Source of the DNA: a virus
Length of the DNA stretch: 49,122 nucleotides
IMG/VR virus record: IMGVR_UViG_3300030104_005222
Span: 1 to 49,122 of that record
Direction: 5' to 3' (one strand)
Below the pieces are notes generated by a model. That model was not told the DNA's origin. It searched no databases and was given only the letters and a program-made list of their open reading frames with translations. Made by a program: the position numbers and the translations under genes. Positions 3,403-38,585 of this stretch are shown piece by piece; positions within the stretch are counted from its first letter, which is position 1; each line of letters begins with the position of its first letter.

Positions 3403-4311
3403 CTAACCAATGAGGTTAGTCAGAAGGCGCTTACGCTCCTTGTTCGTCTCGCGAGCCAACTGACGCTTGAGGTCACTGAGAGGCATAGCGCCGTCGAGTG
3501 CGTCATGGCTGGATTCTTCGACGAGGTCCCAGGTGCCGGTGGCCGCATTGAAGATACGACGTTCGTCTGCACCAACCTTCGACGCTTCGTTGGCTTCTTC
3601 GCTGGGGCGAACGGTGCGCGCCTCACGGATGCGCTTGGTGCCCTGCTTGGCGGCATCGAAGTTGGACGAGAAGTAACCAGCCTCCGACTTAGGGCTGATG
3701 CCATCGTTGCATGTCCAAGGCCAGAGGAAGTTCTCGCCGGTCTTGCCGTTGGTGCCCATGTCAGGGTAGAAGCTGATGGACTCGATGTCTTTCAACCAGT
3801 TCCACACCTTGACGGCGGCGTCGTATCGCTGCTCGATGGTGGCCTGACCACCTTGCCAGTGCTTACGCTGCTCGATGTTGTCGCAAGCGAGGATAAGTCC
3901 GATGGCTTCCTCGAAGCGAGCCGGAGAGAATCCGGTGTGAGCATGGTTAGGAGAACCACTACGACGAGTTACCGACGAATCACCAAGAAGGCTACCGAAG
4001 GCGTCATCGGAACCAAGCGCCGAAGCGTTCGGGTCGAAGGTCCACATGAAACGCAACAAGGTGTGACGAGAATGAACAGTCTCGCCGTCACGACCCTCGT
4101 ATGAGTAGTCACCGAAGACAACCGAGCCACCCTGGAAGTAAGACTCAACGGTCTGACGAAGGTCGCGGTGAGCATTACCCTCTGTCTGAAGCGGGATGGA
4201 CCGGAGATGCTTGACGATCATGCCGAGCAACTTGTTAGTAAGTTCGACGCGCTCTTCACGAGTGGCGACGAAACGAGCTTGAGTAGGGAACATTGTGATT
4301 GCTTTTGTCAT
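3403..4311 (-). CDS. Unknown protein, 302 aa, with codon use of a highly expressed gene
   Basis: The start at 4311-4309 (MTKAITMFPTQARF) has AAAGGAAAG four to five bases upstream; an in-frame ATG at 4335 has no ribosome site. All 14 Phe codons are TTC, all Tyr codons TAC, nearly all Ile ATC and nearly all Asn AAC, whereas most neighbouring genes use TTT, AAT and ATT freely. The capsid gene shows the same bias, so abundant synthesis is likely. The sequence is soluble, with aromatic blocks (KVWNWLKDIESISFYPDM, then FLWPWTCNDG near residues 190-200) and a charged helical C-terminus (SDLKRQLARETNKERKRLL). It stands alone, with its own terminator and a long gene-free region upstream. No family is recognised. 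Confidence 0.85.
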   Translation of the reverse strand: MTKAITMFPTQARFVATREERVELTNKLLGMIVKHLRSIPLQTEGNAHRDLRQTVESYFQGGSVVFGDYSYEGRDGETVHSRHTLLRFMWTFDPNASALGSDDAFGSLLGDSSVTRRSGSPNHAHTGFSPARFEEAIGLILACDNIEQRKHWQGGQATIEQRYDAAVKVWNWLKDIESISFYPDMGTNGKTGENFLWPWTCNDGISPKSEAGYFSSNFDAAKQGTKRIREARTVRPSEEANEASKVGADERRIFNAATGTWDLVEESSHDALDGAMPLSDLKRQLARETNKERKRLLTNLIG

Positions 4312-4322
4312 TGTACTTTCCT

Positions 4323-4352
4323 TTGTGTATGACATTTATGAATGAGTGTAAT
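4323..4352 (+). promoter_or_regulatory. Possible sigma70-like promoter for the structured RNA
   Basis: TTGTGT (4323-4328) and TGTAAT (4347-4352, five of six matches to the -10 consensus) are 18 bases apart and read towards the structured region. An interrupted inverted repeat, TGAGTGTAATACTCA (4343-4357), covers the -10 box and could be an operator. The -35 match is weak, so this is tentative. Confidence 0.3.
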
Positions 4353-4422
4353 ACTCACGTAAGTTATTAGAATAAAAGAGAAAAAGAGAAAAGAGAGAAA
4401 GAAAAAAAGAAAACTACACAGA

Positions 4423-5100
4423 CACCTCCGGGTAAGAAAAAACATACTAAACCCAGGTGCATCACCACTTCAGCATTTGGAAGCTGGCATGTCATAAAGA
4501 AACTCCTTGGTTCACCCAGAGTGACCAAGGATGTTTCTGGGATGCCCGAAAACATCTGCAGTAAATCAAAGATGAATAAAACAAAAGGTCACCGAGTCCG
4601 GTAGGACACCTTGAAATATAAATAAAAAAGGAGGTGACACCATGACCGGCAGGTCCGACCTAAACTTGGTTTAGGTCAAGTGGTCATCTTTGAACCGACA
4701 CATTCGTAGCAGCAACCGTAGACCGGATGACCAAACTTGTTTTGGTCACGAAGGGTTGACGTTCGCTGAGTGAATAATCAGGAAGGGACACCGAGCAGGT
4801 GTCCGAGGTTTCCGGATTATTTACCTTGGGCTTCTGGTTGACCAAGGGTCAAGCGGTCATGCGAGTGGCGCATATGACCGCAAGAAGTCTCAGCGGAAAG
4901 GAATGGAAGAGTTTATCCGGTCCAGAAAAAAGCTGACCGATAGGTCAATCCGCCAAATGCAATCCACCCAATCCACCAATCGACCAACGAACCAATCCGC
5001 CCACCAAAGAAGCTGGTCAAACCAATCGGCCCAAGTGTTTTGTCGTCCGGATCCGCCCAGGGCGAGAAAAAGTTAAGTCCTACATGTAGTTAGACTTCCG
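4423..5100 (+). ncRNA. Large structured RNA candidate of about 680 nt
   Basis: This gene-free stretch has consecutive and nested stems: 4423-4459 (CACCT and GGGT with their partners, A-rich loop); a three-tier rod 4486-4546 (GGCAT, AGAAAC, CCTTGG and TCAC with their partners); 4585-4612; 4642-4687 enclosing a perfect 8-bp hairpin at 4657-4677; 4713-4758 enclosing a perfect 8-bp hairpin at 4728-4748; a rod 4773-4821 with about 18 pairs; 4824-4847; an 11-bp hairpin 4853-4881; and 4893-4953 enclosing 4934-4947. Unpaired segments are A-rich on the plus strand (for example 4434-4450, 4561-4586, 4613-4630), as in folded RNAs, hence the strand choice. Size and ornate layout recall the phage-borne GOLLD/ROOL-type RNAs, but I cannot assign it to either. 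Confidence 0.6.
4642..4674 (+). CDS. Possible 10-codon leader peptide inside the structured RNA
   Basis: ATG at 4642 follows AAGGAGGTGACACC, an ideal ribosome site, and encodes MTGRSDLNLV before TAG. The ORF ends inside the perfect hairpin at 4657-4677, so a translating ribosome would open it. It may be a regulatory leader peptide. It may also be chance, with the purine-rich run serving another function in the RNA. Confidence 0.3.
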   Translation: MTGRSDLNLV

Positions 5101-5145
5101 GAGTCAACAGTGGGGGAGGGGGAGGTATACCCTATTCATCCGTAA

Positions 5146-5169
5146 CCCCTATTGTTGTGGGGGCCTTTT
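5146..5169 (+). terminator. Weak hairpin with short T-run after the structured region
   Basis: CCCC (5146-5149) pairs with GGGG (5159-5162) around TATTGTTGT, followed by GCCTTTT. The stem is short, so termination would be partial at best. It is the only terminator-like element between the structured RNA and the next gene. Confidence 0.25.
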
Positions 5170-5204
5170 CCGAACCGAGGTACTTTTCAAAACACCTTAC
5201 CGCT

Positions 5205-5217
5205 GTGGTATTACCAC
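5205..5217. promoter_or_regulatory. Perfect inverted repeat upstream of the RHH-like gene
   Basis: GTGGTA-T-TACCAC is a perfect 6+1+6 inverted repeat 57 bases before the start of the RHH-like gene. Ribbon-helix-helix proteins often bind such short palindromes near their own promoters, so an autoregulatory operator is plausible. It also resembles the GTGGTTAC motifs at 2.9-3.2 kb. Function is inferred only. Confidence 0.35.
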
Positions 5218-5273
5218 CTTGCCACGTTTAGCGTCCCGTGGTACGGTTTCATCGACTCAAACCTGGAACCACT

Positions 5274-5882
5274 ATGACAAAACAACGACCTAAGCCCATT
5301 CGTTTACACCTTGAACAAAATATGCTCGACCGATTGCAGGATTTAGTCCCAATGGTGGCCGAATCAGCCGCTGCGCGGGAGTTTGGGGTGGACGTGACGC
5401 TGAATACGGTGGCCAGGGTGGCGCTTTTGCGGGGTTTAACCTCTATGGAGGCCGCAATTTCTGGAAATGAGGCGCAATCTGCGCCCGAAACGGTGGTTGC
5501 GCCGCCTCCAGCCTTGGTTTTGCCCGCAATTCCCGCACCATCGGACTCCCCAACAGCAGATGCAGAGGATTTGCAGCCTTCTGTGGACGTAGAATTGGGC
5601 GATGACGGGTTTATTGTCGCGCCTGACGGCTGGAATCAGTGGTCTGCGTCGGAACGGGTACCTACTGAGCAGTCAAAAGTCGATGAATACTACAAATCGG
5701 GGGGTTTGCAGCGATATTGGGGTAGATCTGGGGAGGAAACCATTGTGTTTTACTGGTCACCGGACCCAACGAAGCACGATTTCCCCTCATACAAAGATTT
5801 AGACATGAATCGTAAAGAGATTAAAGTCCAAACCACACCATATGGACCTGGTCACCTGGTTCCTCACGGATGGGCACAATGA
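5274..5882 (+). CDS. Ribbon-helix-helix-like protein with C-terminal extension, 202 aa
   Basis: I start at the ATG at 5274 (MTKQRPKPIRLHLEQ); a GTG at 5238 in the same frame lies in leader-like DNA. The first 65 residues fit a ribbon-helix-helix DNA-binding fold: a beta strand (PIRLHLEQ), a helix (NMLDRLQDLVPMVAESAA) and a final helix (LNTVARVALLRGLTSMEAA). Residues 70-110 are an Ala/Pro-rich linker. The C-terminal half (GFIVAPDGWNQW, then YYKSGGLQRYWGRSG) is an unrecognised aromatic-rich domain. The gene overlaps the next one as ATGA. It is probably a phage regulator, with medium confidence because RHH folds are hard to prove by eye. Confidence 0.65.
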   Translation: MTKQRPKPIRLHLEQNMLDRLQDLVPMVAESAAAREFGVDVTLNTVARVALLRGLTSMEAAISGNEAQSAPETVVAPPPALVLPAIPAPSDSPTADAEDLQPSVDVELGDDGFIVAPDGWNQWSASERVPTEQSKVDEYYKSGGLQRYWGRSGEETIVFYWSPDPTKHDFPSYKDLDMNRKEIKVQTTPYGPGHLVPHGWAQ

Positions 5883-29972: not shown

Positions 29973-32900
29973 GTGGCCGAAACTACCCCGCAACCTGAAT
30001 CAACTGAGCCACCTCAACCGTTTGAAGAAACGGAAGAGCAGAAAAAGAAGTTTGATAAGTTAAACACACAGTTAAACCTTACTTCTATTGGAATGATTTT
30101 TGCGGCTGAGCGTGATGCAGCATTGTCTATGGACGCTGATCAGGCTGAAGCAAAAATTAATCGCGGTGAGGCAATTGTTGATTTTGACGCGGCACTTAAG
30201 ATTGCGGAAAGAAAGACAGGTTTGACCCCGACTGAAACCGTTGAGGCTGCGACGTTTCAAAACATTCCGATTCAAGAAATGTTTGTGCGGATCACACAGG
30301 CGGGTGAGCCTGTTAGCGACGTCGTTAAGTCATATGAGGCCAAACGCGCGGAAGTTGGTCTGACACCTCAGCAACGTAGAGTAAAAAAACGTCAGTTTAG
30401 TATTGCGACACGTGGTATTCAGCGCATCGAGGCTGGCGAAAAAGAACTCGATCCGCAGATAAAAGAGCAAACCTTGACTCGTTTGCGTGGGATGTTTGAT
30501 CCTGAAAAGCAACCACCAAAAATTTATACTGGTGACGCCGCACTTGGCGAGGCTGAAGATGCTGTAATTAAAATGGGTCAGCCTGGGTACAATCGGATCG
30601 AAAAACTTGCGAATCGTATTACTGACCCCGAGATTGCAGACGACCCTGAAAGGGCTCAAATGCTGCGAGACATGTTGGCTGACCTGGGGCCACCTACTAC
30701 GGGTGCGATGGTCCGAGAAGCGGTCTCTGATAATGCGCTAAACGAAATGTTAGGCAAGCTATCCACGTATGATCTAAACAAGCAATCGACCGATAGGAAC
30801 ATCAAGCGGGGAACTAAAGAATACGAAGACCTTAAAAAGACGGTCTACAAGAACGCTTTATACGAAGCGACACTGCTGAAGACGGCGAATAAGTTTTTCC
30901 CTCCCATGTTTGTTTCGTACGACATGATTGACCCCTTGGGTAAGTTTTCTGACCCTGCGTCAGACAGGGACACATCGTGGATTAAAAAGATGGTCGATGC
31001 TGCCAGTGAGGTTCGTGTCGAGGTTGTCGGTCTTGATCGCAAGGGTAGCCCTATTTATCGGTTGACCCACCCCACGTGGCACGTTTTTGAGATGGCTGAT
31101 TCTGCGCAAGCTGCTGTTGCTGGTGTGGTTGAGCGTTTGGCTCGTGGTCCTGAAGATGAGCGCCTGGTGGATGCTTTTGCTGAGGGCGCTTTAGAGGGTG
31201 TTCGTAATCGACGGGATTTCCTCAAGGCCGCGATGTCGACTGAGATGGCCTCCAATAGCAAATTGGGTGCTGCGGCTGCTGGTTTTGGTGGATTTGCTGC
31301 GGCTATTCTTACTCCTGATCTTTTTATGGGTGCGGCAGCAGTTGCTCGGGCGACGAAAAAAGTTGCTGTTGCCGCAAAAAATGTACGTGCATTTAAGGCG
31401 ATGGCACCGGCATTGATTGATGAGCTTGGTGATGGCGCTGAGACGTTGGCAAAAGCTGAGCAGATCATTGGTGATGGTGTCGCCGACGCATTGAGTGCGG
31501 GGAACTATGACGAAGCGTTGAGACTTTTAGACGAAGCCAAAAAGTTTGCGTCTGATTCAGACAGGTTGATTAGTCAAGCACGTAATACCAGCGAAGATAT
31601 GGTTCGTGTTGTGGATCAACTAGACCAAGATATTGCTCGTAGACTAACGGACGAAATACCTGAAATGGGTATTGTTGAAGGTCGACGATTGGCGGCTAAG
31701 ATTCCAGGTGCTTTTGGGGCTACGGCGGAAAATTTGCACCCCAGTGTCCGTCGGGTTGAGTTGCGTGGATCTACGTTGGATCAACCTGTACCGTTTCCTG
31801 AGTTGTTCAACACACGGATGTCGATTGAGCACCTGCAGGATTCGATTCGATTACTGAAAAAGGGTGACATTAACGAGCAGTTTCTTATCGCCTACGTAGA
31901 TGAAGCCAATAAATTTAGCTCTTCGTTAGCGTCACTTATGTCCGACGCAAAAGTTGGTACGCAGACCGCAGGGTTGTCTGCTACTCAAAGACAAGCCTCA
32001 GTGGACTTGATTAATTACCTGACACGATACGAATCAACGCGTTTACTAAGAGACGATCCGAATGCGTGGGCGAGTAAAGTAAAACGCCTCGCTGCAAATT
32101 TACCGTTTGATCCAGATGATTTAGCGGCAAATCGTAAATTTTTATCCGGGTTAGACAAAGCGATTACGGAAACGTTAGCGTCAACGAAATCATTGAAGTC
32201 TAAGTTGAAGACTACGGTCACGATAGCTGACGCAACTGAGGCTACAGCAAAGGCGACTAAAGCCTTGCGGGGTCAGTTCGAGTCTCGTGCCGCTGCTATG
32301 GCGTTTGTACGAGAGAAAGTAGCTAAGCAGGCAAACATTGAGGTCGATCCTTTGCTTGTTCCGTTGACCGAAAAGCATAAAGCGATTGGTCGAGAGGGTT
32401 TATCTCCCGAGGGGCTTAGCTTTTTACGTCAGATTGAAATCGCCGTTCCTGGCCTTAAGGGTGATGACGCATTGCGCATCATTAAAATCGAGGATCAGAA
32501 AGCTCGTAAGTGGGCCAAGACAAATAACAGCACTGTAGGTAAGTACTATGAAGAGCAGTTTCGACTCTCAAATGTGGTCGAGGGTCCTACTACGGCTACT
32601 AAGCCACCCCCAACACCGACTACACCAACTCCTTCTCCTGCACCAACTCCAGCACCAAAACCACCACCAACGGCAGGACCGAAGCCTACCGCCCCTACGC
32701 CGACGCCTAAGCCTTCAACACCTGCGCCGAAGCCTGCTCCACCTGAACCACCAACGCAGGTACCTTTACCTACTACTTCTGTTTCTCAGGGTTCCAATAA
32801 AGCGGCGTTAGGCTTAGTTGACGACATCATAAAAACGGCGCAAAGAATTGATAGCCCCGGTGCTTCGGAACTTGCCTTTCGTTTAGGTCGTGAGAAAAAA

Positions 32901-35900
32901 CGACTGAGTAGTTTGCCGATAAATGAAATTGGTCCTGCTGTTGCTGGTTTGGTACAAAAACGACTTGTGGGTCAATATGGTAAGGGTGATTCAGTCGAAG
33001 TTGTTTTAGGCAGTCTTGACGACACAGGTGAGTTGGTAAGTAAACTTCGTCAGCTTCAGGACCTTGGAACACAACGAGCACCAACAAGTACTCGCGGCGC
33101 GTTTGAAGGTCCTGTAGGTAGTGCGCCGAAGCGCGTTGAGTTGGATGGTGTTGCTCCCAAGGATTCGATAATCGATGGGAAGACGCCTCTTGAGCGACGA
33201 CTCGAACCGAATGAAGTGCACAGATACGACATAATCAGATCACAACCACCGGAACCAGGTCTTAGCTCTGAAGTCTTATTTAACCATCTTATTGGAGTTG
33301 ATGACGGAATTGAGGTTCTTGAATTTTTGTTGCGTCATGGTGAGTTAGATTCAACACGCGCAATCGCGAAAAGAATTTTACCTGTTTTGAAGCGTGAGTT
33401 TAAAGACGAAAAACTCAACTTCAAAATTGTTCACGGGTCTAATTTTCGTCGTGGTGTACGCGGAGATTATACAGATGCTACAGGCTCAGTAAGAATTCGC
33501 GGCGAAAATATTTTTAGTCGTACAGATGATCGATTCCCTGATCTAACTGACACTGGTTTGAATGAGGGGACGATTTTACATGAACTAATTCATGCGGCGA
33601 CGGTACGTTACATTCGAGGAAATCCTAGTTCAAAAGAAGTTAAAGCACTAAAAAGTTTAAGTGGTGAAATCAAAGCTGGACTACAAAAGCTCCTGGATGA
33701 CACACCCGATTTACCTTTAGACGGTAGTGCTGAAAGAGCTTTACTTGCTGAACAACGAAAAGATCTTGTCCATCGATTAGGTAAGTGGGACAGTTACTTC
33801 GGTACGCCAGTTGAAATGGTGACCTTTACACTGACGAACCCTAAATTCCAAGAAATGTTGCGGACCATTAAGGTTACACCGAAACAAAGTTTGTGGAACA
33901 AGTTTACTCGAAAAATTGCTAACATTTTTGGTATCAAAGCAGGTGACGAAGAGTCTGCTTTTGCTCAAGCAATTGTTGCGACGGAAGACATTATTCGTGC
34001 GTCTTCTAAGCAATTTGATCGCCCCCTAAGAGAGTCTTTATTCGAACTAACAGCAACTCAAAAGCTTAGAAACACCAACATATTCCGTTATGGTGCGTCA
34101 ACCGAAGGTTTAAACAACGGTAACTTTATCGAGGTAGAGATAGTCACCCCAACACGAGGGGCGTCCTACCGGAGTAGACTTGGCCCCAGAGAAATGCGCG
34201 TCAGGAGTATTGAGCTTTCAGATGATGTTAAAAATACTGGTTTGGGTACGGAAATATATATTCGGGCTTTGCGCAAGGCTCAAAATGAGGGTGCGGCTTT
34301 TGTCAGCGATGTAGGTCCGAGCCCTGATGCTTTACGGGTTTACGGTACGCTTGAAAGGTACGGGATTAAATTCCGTCGTCGTGGCGTTCCTTCGGGAATG
34401 ACGGCTGAAATTTCAGACCAGTTGTTTATTACTGCTGACGATCTGAAACGGATTGACCTTCAAGATGTGTTGAATCAACATGTCGCACGAAAGACTCCAT
34501 CGGATGCAGTGTTTTCTATGGTGCCGAATGTGGCATCTAATCGAGTCGTAGTTGAGCGATTAGACGACGGTCGAATCTTTTTGCGGGCACTGACAGATAC
34601 TGCAACTGCTGATGACTTTATTCGTGCCCTTGGCTCCGCTTCTCGCCGTAATCTTGATGAGTCCGACATGAAAGCTCTCGTAGCTTGGTTGGGCACTAAG
34701 GGCGTTAAGGTCAGTCACAATGGTGCCGTGTTTACCGCCAAAGATCCAGCGACCATTGAGCGTGCGGAAGACGAGTTTGCAAGTGCGTATTTAACTTACG
34801 TTCGATCTGGCCGGGCGGATAAACCAGAAATTAAAGGCGCGCTGAACAAAGCCTCTGAGTGGTTGAAGGATACATATGCGGCTGCGACGGGTCGAAGTGT
34901 TGGTGGCCCACCTCCTGGTATGGATCCTACATTGACGAAAACGCTCGACAAGATGCTACGTCGTCCGTCAGATCAAGTTTCGTTACCCAACATTTTTAAA
35001 ATTACGAAAGACGCTTTGTTTTCTACCAGCGTCAAGGGTACTGAAATCGACGTCGGTCAAGAGATTCTGCGCGTGACATATCGTCTGGGCTATCCAATGG
35101 CAGAAGACGACCTTTCAAAGCAGATGACTAAAGCGGCAAAACTGTACTCTGAAGGCAAAAAAGATCAGGCAGTAATCAAACTCCCTGGCCCAGTTTCATT
35201 CGGCGGTCGGTCAGCAAAAGATGAGTATTCGTTAGACGAGATCATTAAGATTCAAAGTGAGCTTGAGTCAGCAAAACTTTTGGACATGTCAGACACTTCT
35301 TTGTTGCCGCTGGGCGGGGCTCATCGAGGTGTGGGTGAGAGGAACGCGTCGGAAATTGTGGAGCAGATCGTTCACGGTAGTCGGGCTGGTGGCGTATTCA
35401 AAAGCCTTTACTTGGGTGGCGATGCGTATGCCGACATGAGAAGTTTGCCCTTGATTGTTCGTGAAGCAATTCAGGGTGGTGCTCGAAAGGTGCAGCAGGC
35501 TGTGGGTGAGACGATCACGTTGGTTACAGAGAAAGACGTCACCAACCTCATGCACTACCTGACGGGTAAGGCAGCTATTCAGTTTGCTAAGGGTGGTCGG
35601 TCGGCTGTGAGTGCTGGTCATGACTCTATGGGTGATGTTGTCGATAGTTTACGTAAGTACTTTGAAGCGGTGGCAAGCACCCCTGAAGGTGAGCGTAAGT
35701 TAGAAATCGTTTCGGACTTTTGTCAATTGGTGCGTGAGCGGGGTAGCAGCGCCAAAGCTATTACTGAGATTAAAAACCGTGGATATGACCAAGAAGAATT
35801 AATGGCCGCGTTTAGTGAGATTGTGCGTGGCAAGAAAGCAAATCGGTTTTTGCGCGAGACATTCCAGGCCGCAGGATTCAAAGCTGACGATGAGGCCCGC

Positions 35901-38585
35901 TTGTTACCGGAGTACTTTACTCAAGCGCGGTATGGTTCGTCCGGAACACAAGATGCTGGTGGTCTGCTCGAAACGATGCTGTACTACGCAGATCGTGTAC
36001 CACGAGAATACAAAGGTAAGGGTCAACTGTTCTCTGAGCGATTGGCCGCAGAGGGTATGGATGCCCAGCGATCTGAAGCAACATTCTTGCGATTGTACGA
36101 AGATCTGAACACAGTATTTAAAGACGACTCAAACGTTTCTAACCGCGTGGCTATTTTGATCGCGGCTCATGGTCACGCAAACAAGGCTAAAATGGAATGG
36201 GTCGGCATGGGTATCGCTGCCGACGAAAAGCTCAACAAGAGTATCAACCGATATTTCTTAGGTGAGTTTGTTGCCGATGAAGACATTGCTCAGGTAAAAC
36301 GATTCTTCGAAAACATGGGTTACAACCCGAATATGGTTGAAGCTTTTGACCTTTACGGACAAAAGATGTTTATTCCTGCCCAAGCTCGTAAGCGTTTGTC
36401 GATGGCGTTGGATCAAGCAATGGACCCTGCAATTCGTAAGCAGGTGGGTGGAGACTTGTGGGACGCGTTAGCCGAGCCAGAAAACATTATACGCGCTGGT
36501 GTATCTGGTAAGAATGAGTCGGCAAAAATGACTGCGGCGTTGTTTTACCGCTACCTTAAAACACGAATGGTTCGGGGTCACTACATCCTTAAGGCCAAGT
36601 ATTTTTGGATGAACACATTCGATCACTTTAATCAAACTGCACTACGTTGCGGGTACAGCACAGCGTTGGTATCTACGACACGCATGGTTTCTCAGAACCT
36701 GTTGTCTAACAATATCGGTCAAGCGTTTGTTGCTGCCGCACGCATGATGGGCCGTGGTCAGAGTGTTGAGGATGTTCGTCGGGTACTTCAAAGCTTTGGT
36801 GACGAGGGCGCAAAATGGGCGGGCAAACTGACCCGATCGTCGAAATGGCACATTAGCGTCAACGATGTTTTGCGGGGTGGCGACACGATTATTATGGTCG
36901 GTGGTCGACCCTACAAAGCAAACGATTTGCGTCAGCAGTTTTTGGAAGCTGGTATTTTTGCCTCGTTTGATACGAGTCAATTGGGTACGAAAATTCAAAA
37001 CGTCGGCAACTTGTTCCTGGACGAGGTTGCGAAAAGCACTTCAGGTAAGACCCGCAAGATGTTTAAAGACATCAAAGATGACATTAAAGGGGCATCAGAA
37101 GATATTGCTGAGGCGTGGTCGGAGCGCGAGCGTTTGGGATTGGCGATAACCTTAATGGAGAAAGGTCTCGATCCTCGTACAGCGGCTCGGCTTACGATTG
37201 ATGCGCTTTACGATTACGCAGGTAGCATGTCTAAGGGGGATCGAAACTTCCTCTTGAACCTCTTCTTCCCTTTCTGGGCTTTCCAGAAGAACGCAAACCG
37301 CCATATTTTCGATACGATTTTTAGTCCTGAAGGAGCGTACCGTTTAGGCGTAATGCGCAGGTTCCATGACAAGGGGTCGGATGTAGCAAGTGAGTTGGCG
37401 TACTTAGCTTCGGTAGATGAAAACGGTGTCGATGTTGATGCATTGCCTCCTGATCTCAGGCAAAGCTACTTTGCACTTAAAAAGCAAGTGTACGAAAGAC
37501 TAAGTGTCGACGGTCAGGTGCCGCCATTAGTGCGCCATGAGCTTCGTATGTTTATTTCAGGTTCGCTTTATGGCTACCATGGCGGTCAATTATTGGAGTC
37601 AACAACACCATTAAGTGACGAGATTTCGGCCATAGCGGACGATCTACGGGACGAAAAGACTGGCGAGAGAATGCCGATTGATCGTCGCGCTCTTGCGTCT
37701 TACTACGTACCAAGAACAGATCGATCATCTTTGCCCGGTTACTATCGCGACCGCATATCGTTGCGGTTCCCGTACACGCCGTCAGACTACGAAGAGACTG
37801 TTCGCGATCCTGCTGTGCCAGGAGAGTTTAACGACACGATGAAAACGTGGTTGGATCTATACCGCGCGAGGAATGTCGATGCCCCATACGTGGGTCTGTT
37901 TATACCTGAGGCAACTTATGTCGCGGCGTTCAACCACATGACCTATTTGACGTCTTCGATGATTATGACAATGCAAAAAATCGAAGACATGGGTGACAGT
38001 TGGTGGTCCGATGAAGATGATGGCTCAGACGCGATCAATCCGTACACAGGTTTGTTGGCCTTGGCTACACCAGAACGAGCGCCAATTTTGTCTGACCTCC
38101 AAGCTGAATTAGGTCTCGGCGGTAATCAAGTGCCGCGAAAAATGGCGTTCGCAATGGTTTACACGGCTCAAATGTTCAACATGGATATTCTTGAGATCGA
38201 TGAAAAAGACGATCCTTTTGACGTATTGAATAAAATGCAGCGAGCCAAAGACGAGGGTGAGGAATTTGAGTTGCCGCTTTTGGGTACCGACAAGAAGATC
38301 AAACCCGGTATGCGGTATTACTTAATGCCGGGTGTGGCTCAAGCGGCTTTCGTTAACAGTCCGTTTGGTGAAATGAACGATCTTTTGTTAAAGTTAGAAA
38401 GAACTGCACCGGAAAAAGCTGCGGGCTTACAGGGTCGATTGCAGCAAGTTGCTCGTGGACTTACTGGACTTGAGATTAAGGATGTCTCAAGAAGTAAGAG
38501 TGCGGCACAAGAAATGTTCCGCGCCAGAAAGGAAACCCCACAAAAAGTAATCAAGAAAGCACAATCGAGGGAAAAACTCAAATAG
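29973..38585 (+). CDS. Giant polyvalent internal/ejection protein, 2870 aa
   Basis: Starts with GTG after GGAG at six bases. Visible parts: a helical N-terminus; an Ala/Gly hydrophobic segment (GAAAAGFGGFAAAILTP) from about residue 430; coiled helices to about 870; a Pro/Thr-rich linker, about 878-940; a zincin-like site, LHELIHAATVRY, with HELIH at 1203-1207; a GNAT-like segment, about 1403-1468 (IELSDDVKNTGLGTEIYIRA, then LRVYGTLERYGIKF); long helical regions; and FFPFW at 2431-2435 in a segment (RNFLLNLFFPFWAFQKNANR) that I associate with large phage ejection proteins. The linker, protease motif and acetyltransferase-like block fit the polyvalent-protein idea, in which such proteins are carried in the capsid and injected. 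No lysozyme motif is evident. Confidence 0.8.
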   Translation: MAETTPQPESTEPPQPFEETEEQKKKFDKLNTQLNLTSIGMIFAAERDAALSMDADQAEAKINRGEAIVDFDAALKIAERKTGLTPTETVEAATFQNIPIQEMFVRITQAGEPVSDVVKSYEAKRAEVGLTPQQRRVKKRQFSIATRGIQRIEAGEKELDPQIKEQTLTRLRGMFDPEKQPPKIYTGDAALGEAEDAVIKMGQPGYNRIEKLANRITDPEIADDPERAQMLRDMLADLGPPTTGAMVREAVSDNALNEMLGKLSTYDLNKQSTDRNIKRGTKEYEDLKKTVYKNALYEATLLKTANKFFPPMFVSYDMIDPLGKFSDPASDRDTSWIKKMVDAASEVRVEVVGLDRKGSPIYRLTHPTWHVFEMADSAQAAVAGVVERLARGPEDERLVDAFAEGALEGVRNRRDFLKAAMSTEMASNSKLGAAAAGFGGFAAAILTPDLFMGAAAVARATKKVAVAAKNVRAFKAMAPALIDELGDGAETLAKAEQIIGDGVADALSAGNYDEALRLLDEAKKFASDSDRLISQARNTSEDMVRVVDQLDQDIARRLTDEIPEMGIVEGRRLAAKIPGAFGATAENLHPSVRRVELRGSTLDQPVPFPELFNTRMSIEHLQDSIRLLKKGDINEQFLIAYVDEANKFSSSLASLMSDAKVGTQTAGLSATQRQASVDLINYLTRYESTRLLRDDPNAWASKVKRLAANLPFDPDDLAANRKFLSGLDKAITETLASTKSLKSKLKTTVTIADATEATAKATKALRGQFESRAAAMAFVREKVAKQANIEVDPLLVPLTEKHKAIGREGLSPEGLSFLRQIEIAVPGLKGDDALRIIKIEDQKARKWAKTNNSTVGKYYEEQFRLSNVVEGPTTATKPPPTPTTPTPSPAPTPAPKPPPTAGPKPTAPTPTPKPSTPAPKPAPPEPPTQVPLPTTSVSQGSNKAALGLVDDIIKTAQRIDSPGASELAFRLGREKKRLSSLPINEIGPAVAGLVQKRLVGQYGKGDSVEVVLGSLDDTGELVSKLRQLQDLGTQRAPTSTRGAFEGPVGSAPKRVELDGVAPKDSIIDGKTPLERRLEPNEVHRYDIIRSQPPEPGLSSEVLFNHLIGVDDGIEVLEFLLRHGELDSTRAIAKRILPVLKREFKDEKLNFKIVHGSNFRRGVRGDYTDATGSVRIRGENIFSRTDDRFPDLTDTGLNEGTILHELIHAATVRYIRGNPSSKEVKALKSLSGEIKAGLQKLLDDTPDLPLDGSAERALLAEQRKDLVHRLGKWDSYFGTPVEMVTFTLTNPKFQEMLRTIKVTPKQSLWNKFTRKIANIFGIKAGDEESAFAQAIVATEDIIRASSKQFDRPLRESLFELTATQKLRNTNIFRYGASTEGLNNGNFIEVEIVTPTRGASYRSRLGPREMRVRSIELSDDVKNTGLGTEIYIRALRKAQNEGAAFVSDVGPSPDALRVYGTLERYGIKFRRRGVPSGMTAEISDQLFITADDLKRIDLQDVLNQHVARKTPSDAVFSMVPNVASNRVVVERLDDGRIFLRALTDTATADDFIRALGSASRRNLDESDMKALVAWLGTKGVKVSHNGAVFTAKDPATIERAEDEFASAYLTYVRSGRADKPEIKGALNKASEWLKDTYAAATGRSVGGPPPGMDPTLTKTLDKMLRRPSDQVSLPNIFKITKDALFSTSVKGTEIDVGQEILRVTYRLGYPMAEDDLSKQMTKAAKLYSEGKKDQAVIKLPGPVSFGGRSAKDEYSLDEIIKIQSELESAKLLDMSDTSLLPLGGAHRGVGERNASEIVEQIVHGSRAGGVFKSLYLGGDAYADMRSLPLIVREAIQGGARKVQQAVGETITLVTEKDVTNLMHYLTGKAAIQFAKGGRSAVSAGHDSMGDVVDSLRKYFEAVASTPEGERKLEIVSDFCQLVRERGSSAKAITEIKNRGYDQEELMAAFSEIVRGKKANRFLRETFQAAGFKADDEARLLPEYFTQARYGSSGTQDAGGLLETMLYYADRVPREYKGKGQLFSERLAAEGMDAQRSEATFLRLYEDLNTVFKDDSNVSNRVAILIAAHGHANKAKMEWVGMGIAADEKLNKSINRYFLGEFVADEDIAQVKRFFENMGYNPNMVEAFDLYGQKMFIPAQARKRLSMALDQAMDPAIRKQVGGDLWDALAEPENIIRAGVSGKNESAKMTAALFYRYLKTRMVRGHYILKAKYFWMNTFDHFNQTALRCGYSTALVSTTRMVSQNLLSNNIGQAFVAAARMMGRGQSVEDVRRVLQSFGDEGAKWAGKLTRSSKWHISVNDVLRGGDTIIMVGGRPYKANDLRQQFLEAGIFASFDTSQLGTKIQNVGNLFLDEVAKSTSGKTRKMFKDIKDDIKGASEDIAEAWSERERLGLAITLMEKGLDPRTAARLTIDALYDYAGSMSKGDRNFLLNLFFPFWAFQKNANRHIFDTIFSPEGAYRLGVMRRFHDKGSDVASELAYLASVDENGVDVDALPPDLRQSYFALKKQVYERLSVDGQVPPLVRHELRMFISGSLYGYHGGQLLESTTPLSDEISAIADDLRDEKTGERMPIDRRALASYYVPRTDRSSLPGYYRDRISLRFPYTPSDYEETVRDPAVPGEFNDTMKTWLDLYRARNVDAPYVGLFIPEATYVAAFNHMTYLTSSMIMTMQKIEDMGDSWWSDEDDGSDAINPYTGLLALATPERAPILSDLQAELGLGGNQVPRKMAFAMVYTAQMFNMDILEIDEKDDPFDVLNKMQRAKDEGEEFELPLLGTDKKIKPGMRYYLMPGVAQAAFVNSPFGEMNDLLLKLERTAPEKAAGLQGRLQQVARGLTGLEIKDVSRSKSAAQEMFRARKETPQKVIKKAQSREKLK

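Follow-up and report, generated by a model that had tools for sequence, protein, structure and literature searches.

A conserved structured RNA, probably a free-standing noncoding RNA, upstream of an undescribed phage gene family

Introduction

The DNA examined here, referred to below as the window, is a stretch of 49,122 nucleotides from IMG/VR record IMGVR_UViG_3300030104_005222, a 73-kb virus record from an uncultured bacteriophage that carries genes for a portal protein, a terminase, and a major head protein. Approximately 940 bases without a gene separate P0001, an orphan gene encoded leftward (positions 3403 to 4335, likely start at 4311), from P0002, encoded rightward on the plus strand (5274 to 5882), whose 202-aa product belongs to an undescribed phage family conserved beside the RNA described below. 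What occupies this gap is the question addressed here. An earlier note, made from the sequence alone, had proposed that some 680 gene-free bases (4423 to 5100) form a large, ornate, plus-strand RNA, reminiscent of GOLLD and ROOL but identifiable as neither and possibly of a new class. The computational checks that it suggested were a covariance search of all RNA families, the collection of homologs, and a covariation test of the stems; all three have now been carried out.

Elsewhere in the window, positions 29973 to 38585, located after the structural genes, encode a 2,870-residue protein that has no Pfam match.

Predicted fold of the gene-free region

The folding energy of 4423 to 5100 lies 5.3 standard deviations below that of dinucleotide shuffles, none of 20 shuffles folding as well, and the trimmed RNA region of the window has a folding z score of -8.6. 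Since the minus strand of 4423 to 5100 folds with an equal score, neither function nor strand can be proved from folding energy alone, and a fold seen in a single sequence, being weak evidence, might reflect chance, a decayed gene, or a hairpin-rich mobile repeat without any RNA function. Nothing in the region points to a coding remnant. The stretch from 4423 to 4948 is noncoding: there is no open reading frame longer than 62 aa within 4423 to 5100 and no protein conservation, as the small frames match the homologs weakly or only where the DNA itself is conserved, and where they do match, several frames and both strands are involved.

The stems listed in the earlier note proved real, and all features that follow are on the plus strand. 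The 5' part is predicted to form a three-tier rod hairpin (4486 to 4546) and domain II (4566 to 4693), predicted from the window alone, in which a 10-bp stem (4566-4575/4684-4693) closes off hairpins whose loops are rich in A; a perfect 9-bp hairpin stem is formed by 4657-4665 and 4669-4677. A conserved hairpin with a CUUG loop (TGACCAAACTTGTTTTGGTCA, 4728 to 4748) has a perfect 8-bp stem (4728-4735/4741-4748). The core domain is closed by stem H0 (4721 to 4922), in which GACCGGAT at 4721-4728 pairs with ATCCGGTC at 4915-4922. The conserved three-way junction includes H1 (4762-4769/4890-4897), H2 with its variable tip hairpin (4770-4779/4815-4824), and H3 (4829-4835/4883-4889), the rod at 4770 to 4824 comprising 10 + 5 + 7 = 22 pairs. 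H3 encloses H4 (4838-4842/4848-4852) and H5 (4853-4860/4874-4881) and forms with them a second three-way junction, which carries the conserved CUUCUGGUU. A terminal hairpin, TGACC-GATA-GGTCA, is predicted at 4934 to 4947. H1 to H5, but not H0, are part of the unconstrained minimum-energy fold of the trimmed region of the window; enforcing the core together with H0 costs 7.2 kcal/mol. Unpaired segments are A-rich, as had been claimed (49% A, compared with 21% among paired bases).

Positions 4630 to 4674, inside the RNA, contain a perfect Shine-Dalgarno sequence, GGAGGTGA, followed by an ATG and a 10-codon frame (MTGRSDLNLV); these overlap a predicted stem and may be structural only.

Homologs and their distribution

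Homologs were sought by a route that led from the portal protein to 80 related contigs and then to the relatives of P0002, complemented by two scans, one with the alignment of these relatives and one for the operator of P0002. Five homologs (L084, L085, L086, L136, and L137) were found in IMG/VR, each located upstream of a P0002 relative on the same strand. Their P0002 proteins are 67% (L084) or 51 to 54% (the other four) identical to that of the window. The structured gene-free stretch is found at the same place in all of them, with a length, as cut, of ∼725 to 965 nt (∼550 nt in the window), and shares only patches of sequence similarity with that of the window. The family thus far numbers six members, all from a single phage clade, and three of these are similar to each other.

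No further members were recovered from the viral contigs and genomes scanned, which did not include the large metagenome collection. In P0002 relatives at 38 to 49% identity, no RNA was detectable within the contig sequence examined. Nucleotide searches with the RNA of the window returned no match in 50,697 phage records or 72,556 plasmids, and those of the phage records with the L085 and L086 RNAs returned none either; a search via the leftward P0001 also found no homologs. Pattern scans (the H2 stem, a motif of the 3' domain, and CTTCTGGTTGAC...AAGAAG) recovered only the L084, L085, and L086 contigs again. The sole pattern match among 84,980 prokaryote species genomes, a contig of Aquirufa rosea, was rejected, as it fails the covariance model.

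In the window, a small hairpin and a ribosome site of the AAAGGAAAGTG type lie in the 5' leader of the leftward gene (4312 to 4360). L084, L136, and L137 keep both at the corresponding position, though the leftward genes seem unrelated.

Covariation in the shared core

The six members share a core, a nested three-way junction that is kept despite heavy sequence divergence. In H1, CGCUGA/UCAGCG is replaced by CGGUGA/UCACCG in L084, and an A-U pair takes the place of G-C in L085 and L136. H2, GUGNNUAAUC/GAUUANNCAC, is largely replaced in L136, H4 occurs as UUGAC/GUCAA, UUAGC/GCUAA, and UUGAU/AUCAA, and H0 exists in several distinct complementary versions, those of the window, L084, and L137 all being different.

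In the six-member alignment, 93.1% of the cells are paired, compared with 36 to 44% in register-shifted controls, and 12 of the 37 pairs show changes on both sides; the mean for shuffled alignments is 3.4, and none of 500 shuffles was as high. Compensatory changes are present in every core helix, and those in the named helices exceed shuffled and slid controls. When the 3' arms were exchanged between species, the observed pairing was never reached in 20,000 trials, irrespective of whether slippage was allowed. The four-member alignment used for model building gives the same picture of pairing and covariation. A covariance model built from four members with the window left out recovered the window at 4755 to 4901 on the plus strand with 72.2 bits (E = 1.6e-19), the next-best match in the window having an E-value of 0.89; a model of the identical alignment without base pairs scored 34.9 bits. 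Several choices bear on these values. For covariance model A4, long insertions in two sequences (L086 and L137) were trimmed by hand because MAFFT misplaced the 5' arms on the untrimmed cores; pair counts on alignment A7 lean towards the model, and the E-values come from a short calibration.

We regard it as nearly certain that 4423 to 4948 is a genuine conserved structured RNA. Chance folding, gene decay, or a mobile repeat is scarcely credible against compensatory changes across divergent phages, the recovery of the left-out window by the model, the absence of a coding remnant, and the presence of the core at just one place per genome.

Strand of the RNA

The conserved helices contain 13 G-U cells and 2 A-C cells, an imbalance that would be unexpected for a minus-strand RNA or for DNA, so the selected molecule is the plus-strand RNA. 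Tetraloop counts favor the same strand weakly (6 of 83 loops on the plus strand versus 2 of 93 on the minus strand). The earlier view that plus-strand transcription is likely thereby gains support, albeit without transcript data.

Extent of the RNA and its variable periphery

Windowed folding z scores indicate that structure stops near 4945 in the window; in the window and the homologs, structure continues until ∼330 to 400 bases before P0002, with little or none beyond. From this drop the RNA is inferred to extend from ∼4423 to 4948, that is, over ∼520 to 525 nt, an estimate that rests on the z scores, windowed folding, and homologs, the transcript ends being undetermined. The remaining 4946 to 5273, unstructured in the window and in the equivalent stretch of the homologs, is control-region DNA of P0002 and lies outside the folded RNA. 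Of the ∼680 structured bases proposed earlier, which are indeed gene-free, only the first ∼525 are therefore structured. A purine-rich leader of the RNA, starting at ∼4366, is possible. For the RNA itself, no convincing promoter precedes 4423, and no intrinsic terminator is clear on the plus strand past 4948.

Outside the core, the members differ widely. Each of the six has a long 5' rod at a common position, with mostly unrelated sequence, and in five it is followed by GUAGUAGUAG. A GGUCGC-GCAA-GCGAC hairpin is found near the 3' end in L084, L085, L086, and L137, close to the place of the terminal hairpin of the window, and L084 to L086 carry an extra 3' domain that the window lacks. Through the gain and loss of whole hairpins, RNA length varies from ∼550 to 965 nt. 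The unrelated 5' rods and the differing 3' hairpins and domains define a family with a conserved core and an exchangeable periphery.

The GGTCGC-loop-GCGAC(TCC) motif is found at 3645 in L084, at 2813, 3185, and 3563 in L086, at 3628 in L085, at 4840 in L137, and at 3653 (minus strand) in L136. A single RNA can carry up to three copies, and in these loci the motif is almost confined to the RNAs. A role of this hairpin in protein binding or docking is possible.

P0002 and its upstream control region

The TCCRCC repeats (mostly AATCCRCC) at 4946 to 5060, all on one strand, lie ∼220, 275, and 325 bp before P0002, and these distances are conserved; in L136 (3018 to 3118), the repeats are 377, 327, 277, and 223 bases upstream of P0002, i.e., with ∼50-bp spacing. 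All six members have them next to the RNA, and their occurrence is patchy among other relatives, including some without the RNA. The repeats are probably a DNA element that is not part of the folded RNA; they look like a phased DNA-binding array.

Closer to P0002, the palindrome TACCGCTGTGGTA (5198 to 5210), its likely operator, is found in most relatives irrespective of the presence of the RNA, and the hexamers of a promoter-like TTGCCA-17-TACGGT (5219 to 5247) are an identical distance apart in each of the six members. The hexamer pair and the operator together lie 27 to 76 bases before the P0002 start.

The P0002 family has homologs in L084 to L098, L136, and L137 and a conserved C-terminal TPYGPGHxIPHGW motif. 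The protein has no Pfam or PHROG match, and its predicted structure has a low pTM and no fold match in the PDB. The palindrome TACCN5GGTA is kept upstream of P0002 in most relatives, which, as far as sequence can tell, suggests that P0002 is an autoregulator; a DNA-binding role of the protein is a guess.

Nature of the RNA

In each of the six members, the RNA immediately precedes P0002 and shares its strand, with no clear terminator recognized between the two, which would be compatible with a long structured 5' leader that controls transcription or translation of P0002 in cis. This interpretation is unlikely, although it retains some weight. P0002 has its own conserved promoter-like hexamers and operator, the block that bears them is kept in P0002 relatives without detectable RNA, ∼326 unstructured bases intervene between the end of the RNA and P0002, and length variation on the scale seen here, through whole hairpins gained or lost, is unusual for a leader. 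Because of the promoter-like and operator sequences of P0002, and because the operator block persists without the RNA, a free-standing molecule is likelier than a leader.

The locus could also be part of a replication origin, either as DNA hairpins or as a folded RNA primer with its end at the TCCRCC repeats, as its location in a divergent control region and the invariable presence of these repeats after the RNA might suggest. We consider this quite improbable: the excess of G-U over A-C cells indicates that the fold was selected as a one-strand RNA and not as DNA, no extremum of the cumulative GC skew falls at 4.4 to 5.3 kb, and TCCRCC copies are also found in some relatives without the RNA. 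A primer RNA nevertheless remains possible.

On balance, the RNA is probably a free-standing, large, multidomain noncoding RNA of an uncatalogued phage family; its function is inferred, in the absence of transcript data. Transcription of such an RNA would run rightward, starting in the control region that separates P0002 from the divergent leftward genes and ending no later than the TCCRCC repeats. It may act in trans, by analogy with GOLLD and ROOL, as a folded architectural RNA during infection. Its core, H0 to H5, would be the putative functional center, and the peripheral hairpins, which are exchanged rapidly, would serve as spacers or docking surfaces, as in those two families.

Comparison with known RNA families

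The window produced no match to Rfam 15 at the gathering score, and at E ≤ 10 there were only five chance-level matches (E = 0.95 to 6.6), all far under the gathering scores. The five homologs, searched against Rfam at E ≤ 1, yielded nothing except one true tRNA outside the RNA. The GOLLD covariance model (RF02032) matched none of the six whole records at E ≤ 10, and neither did the ROOL model (RF03087), although in the latter case the controls gave no match either. No description of this RNA was found in the literature, where the extensive candidate lists published for phage RNAs were not covered. A very divergent GOLLD, ROOL, or other Rfam family might share the size, the ornate multibranched style, the variable periphery, and the phage genome; with no credible Rfam match and with direct GOLLD and ROOL searches negative, the latter with the proviso just given, we consider such a relationship very unlikely. 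For the same reasons, the RNA is not assigned to GOLLD or ROOL, in agreement with the earlier note, and most likely represents a separate, previously uncatalogued family absent from Rfam. As regards a new class, which that note had considered possible, the lack of any matching family fits, but the evidence is confined to six members of one clade. We propose only tentatively, and with real doubt, that it is a class unrelated to GOLLD, ROOL, and OLE, whose core would form an RNA-only or RNA-protein assembly in infection and whose peripheral hairpins would be freely exchanged between phages.

Large ornate RNAs known to date are very few, the nanocages formed by the two solved phage examples were unexpected (PMC12286853), and an independent family of similar style adds one. 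With its small conserved core and exchangeable periphery, it offers a compact object for testing whether oligomeric assembly is general among large phage RNAs. Reading of a single genome combined with a search of neighboring genes can expose RNA families that are too small and too divergent for the usual alignment-first discovery.

GOLLD is frequently, if not universally, found close to tRNA islands in phages or prophages and forms a 14-mer nanocage, ROOL forms an RNA-only nanocage, and OLE is known from bacteria and not from phages. In checks of the window and L084 to L086, no tRNA was found anywhere in the 49-kb window or in L085 or L086, and only L084 had one, a single tRNA-Asn ∼0.8 kb past P0002. 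GOLLD is large (many members exceed 800 nt), multibranched, and encoded by phages or prophages, with a conserved and a variable region and no known function; ROOL, with a solved example of 659 nt, is likewise ornate and phage encoded; these two, the solved phage ornate RNAs, assemble into nanocages of unknown purpose, and OLE is a large ornate structured RNA of bacteria (PMC12286853). The RNA described here resembles GOLLD in size, multibranching, phage coding, and the combination of a conserved with a variable part, but does not match its model, has its best-conserved core in an internal position, and is surrounded not by a tRNA island but by the divergent control region next to P0002. It resembles OLE in its large, ornate style but matches no Rfam family. 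With ROOL, it does not share a model match, but it has in common a similar size, an ornate fold, and a phage genome that encodes it.
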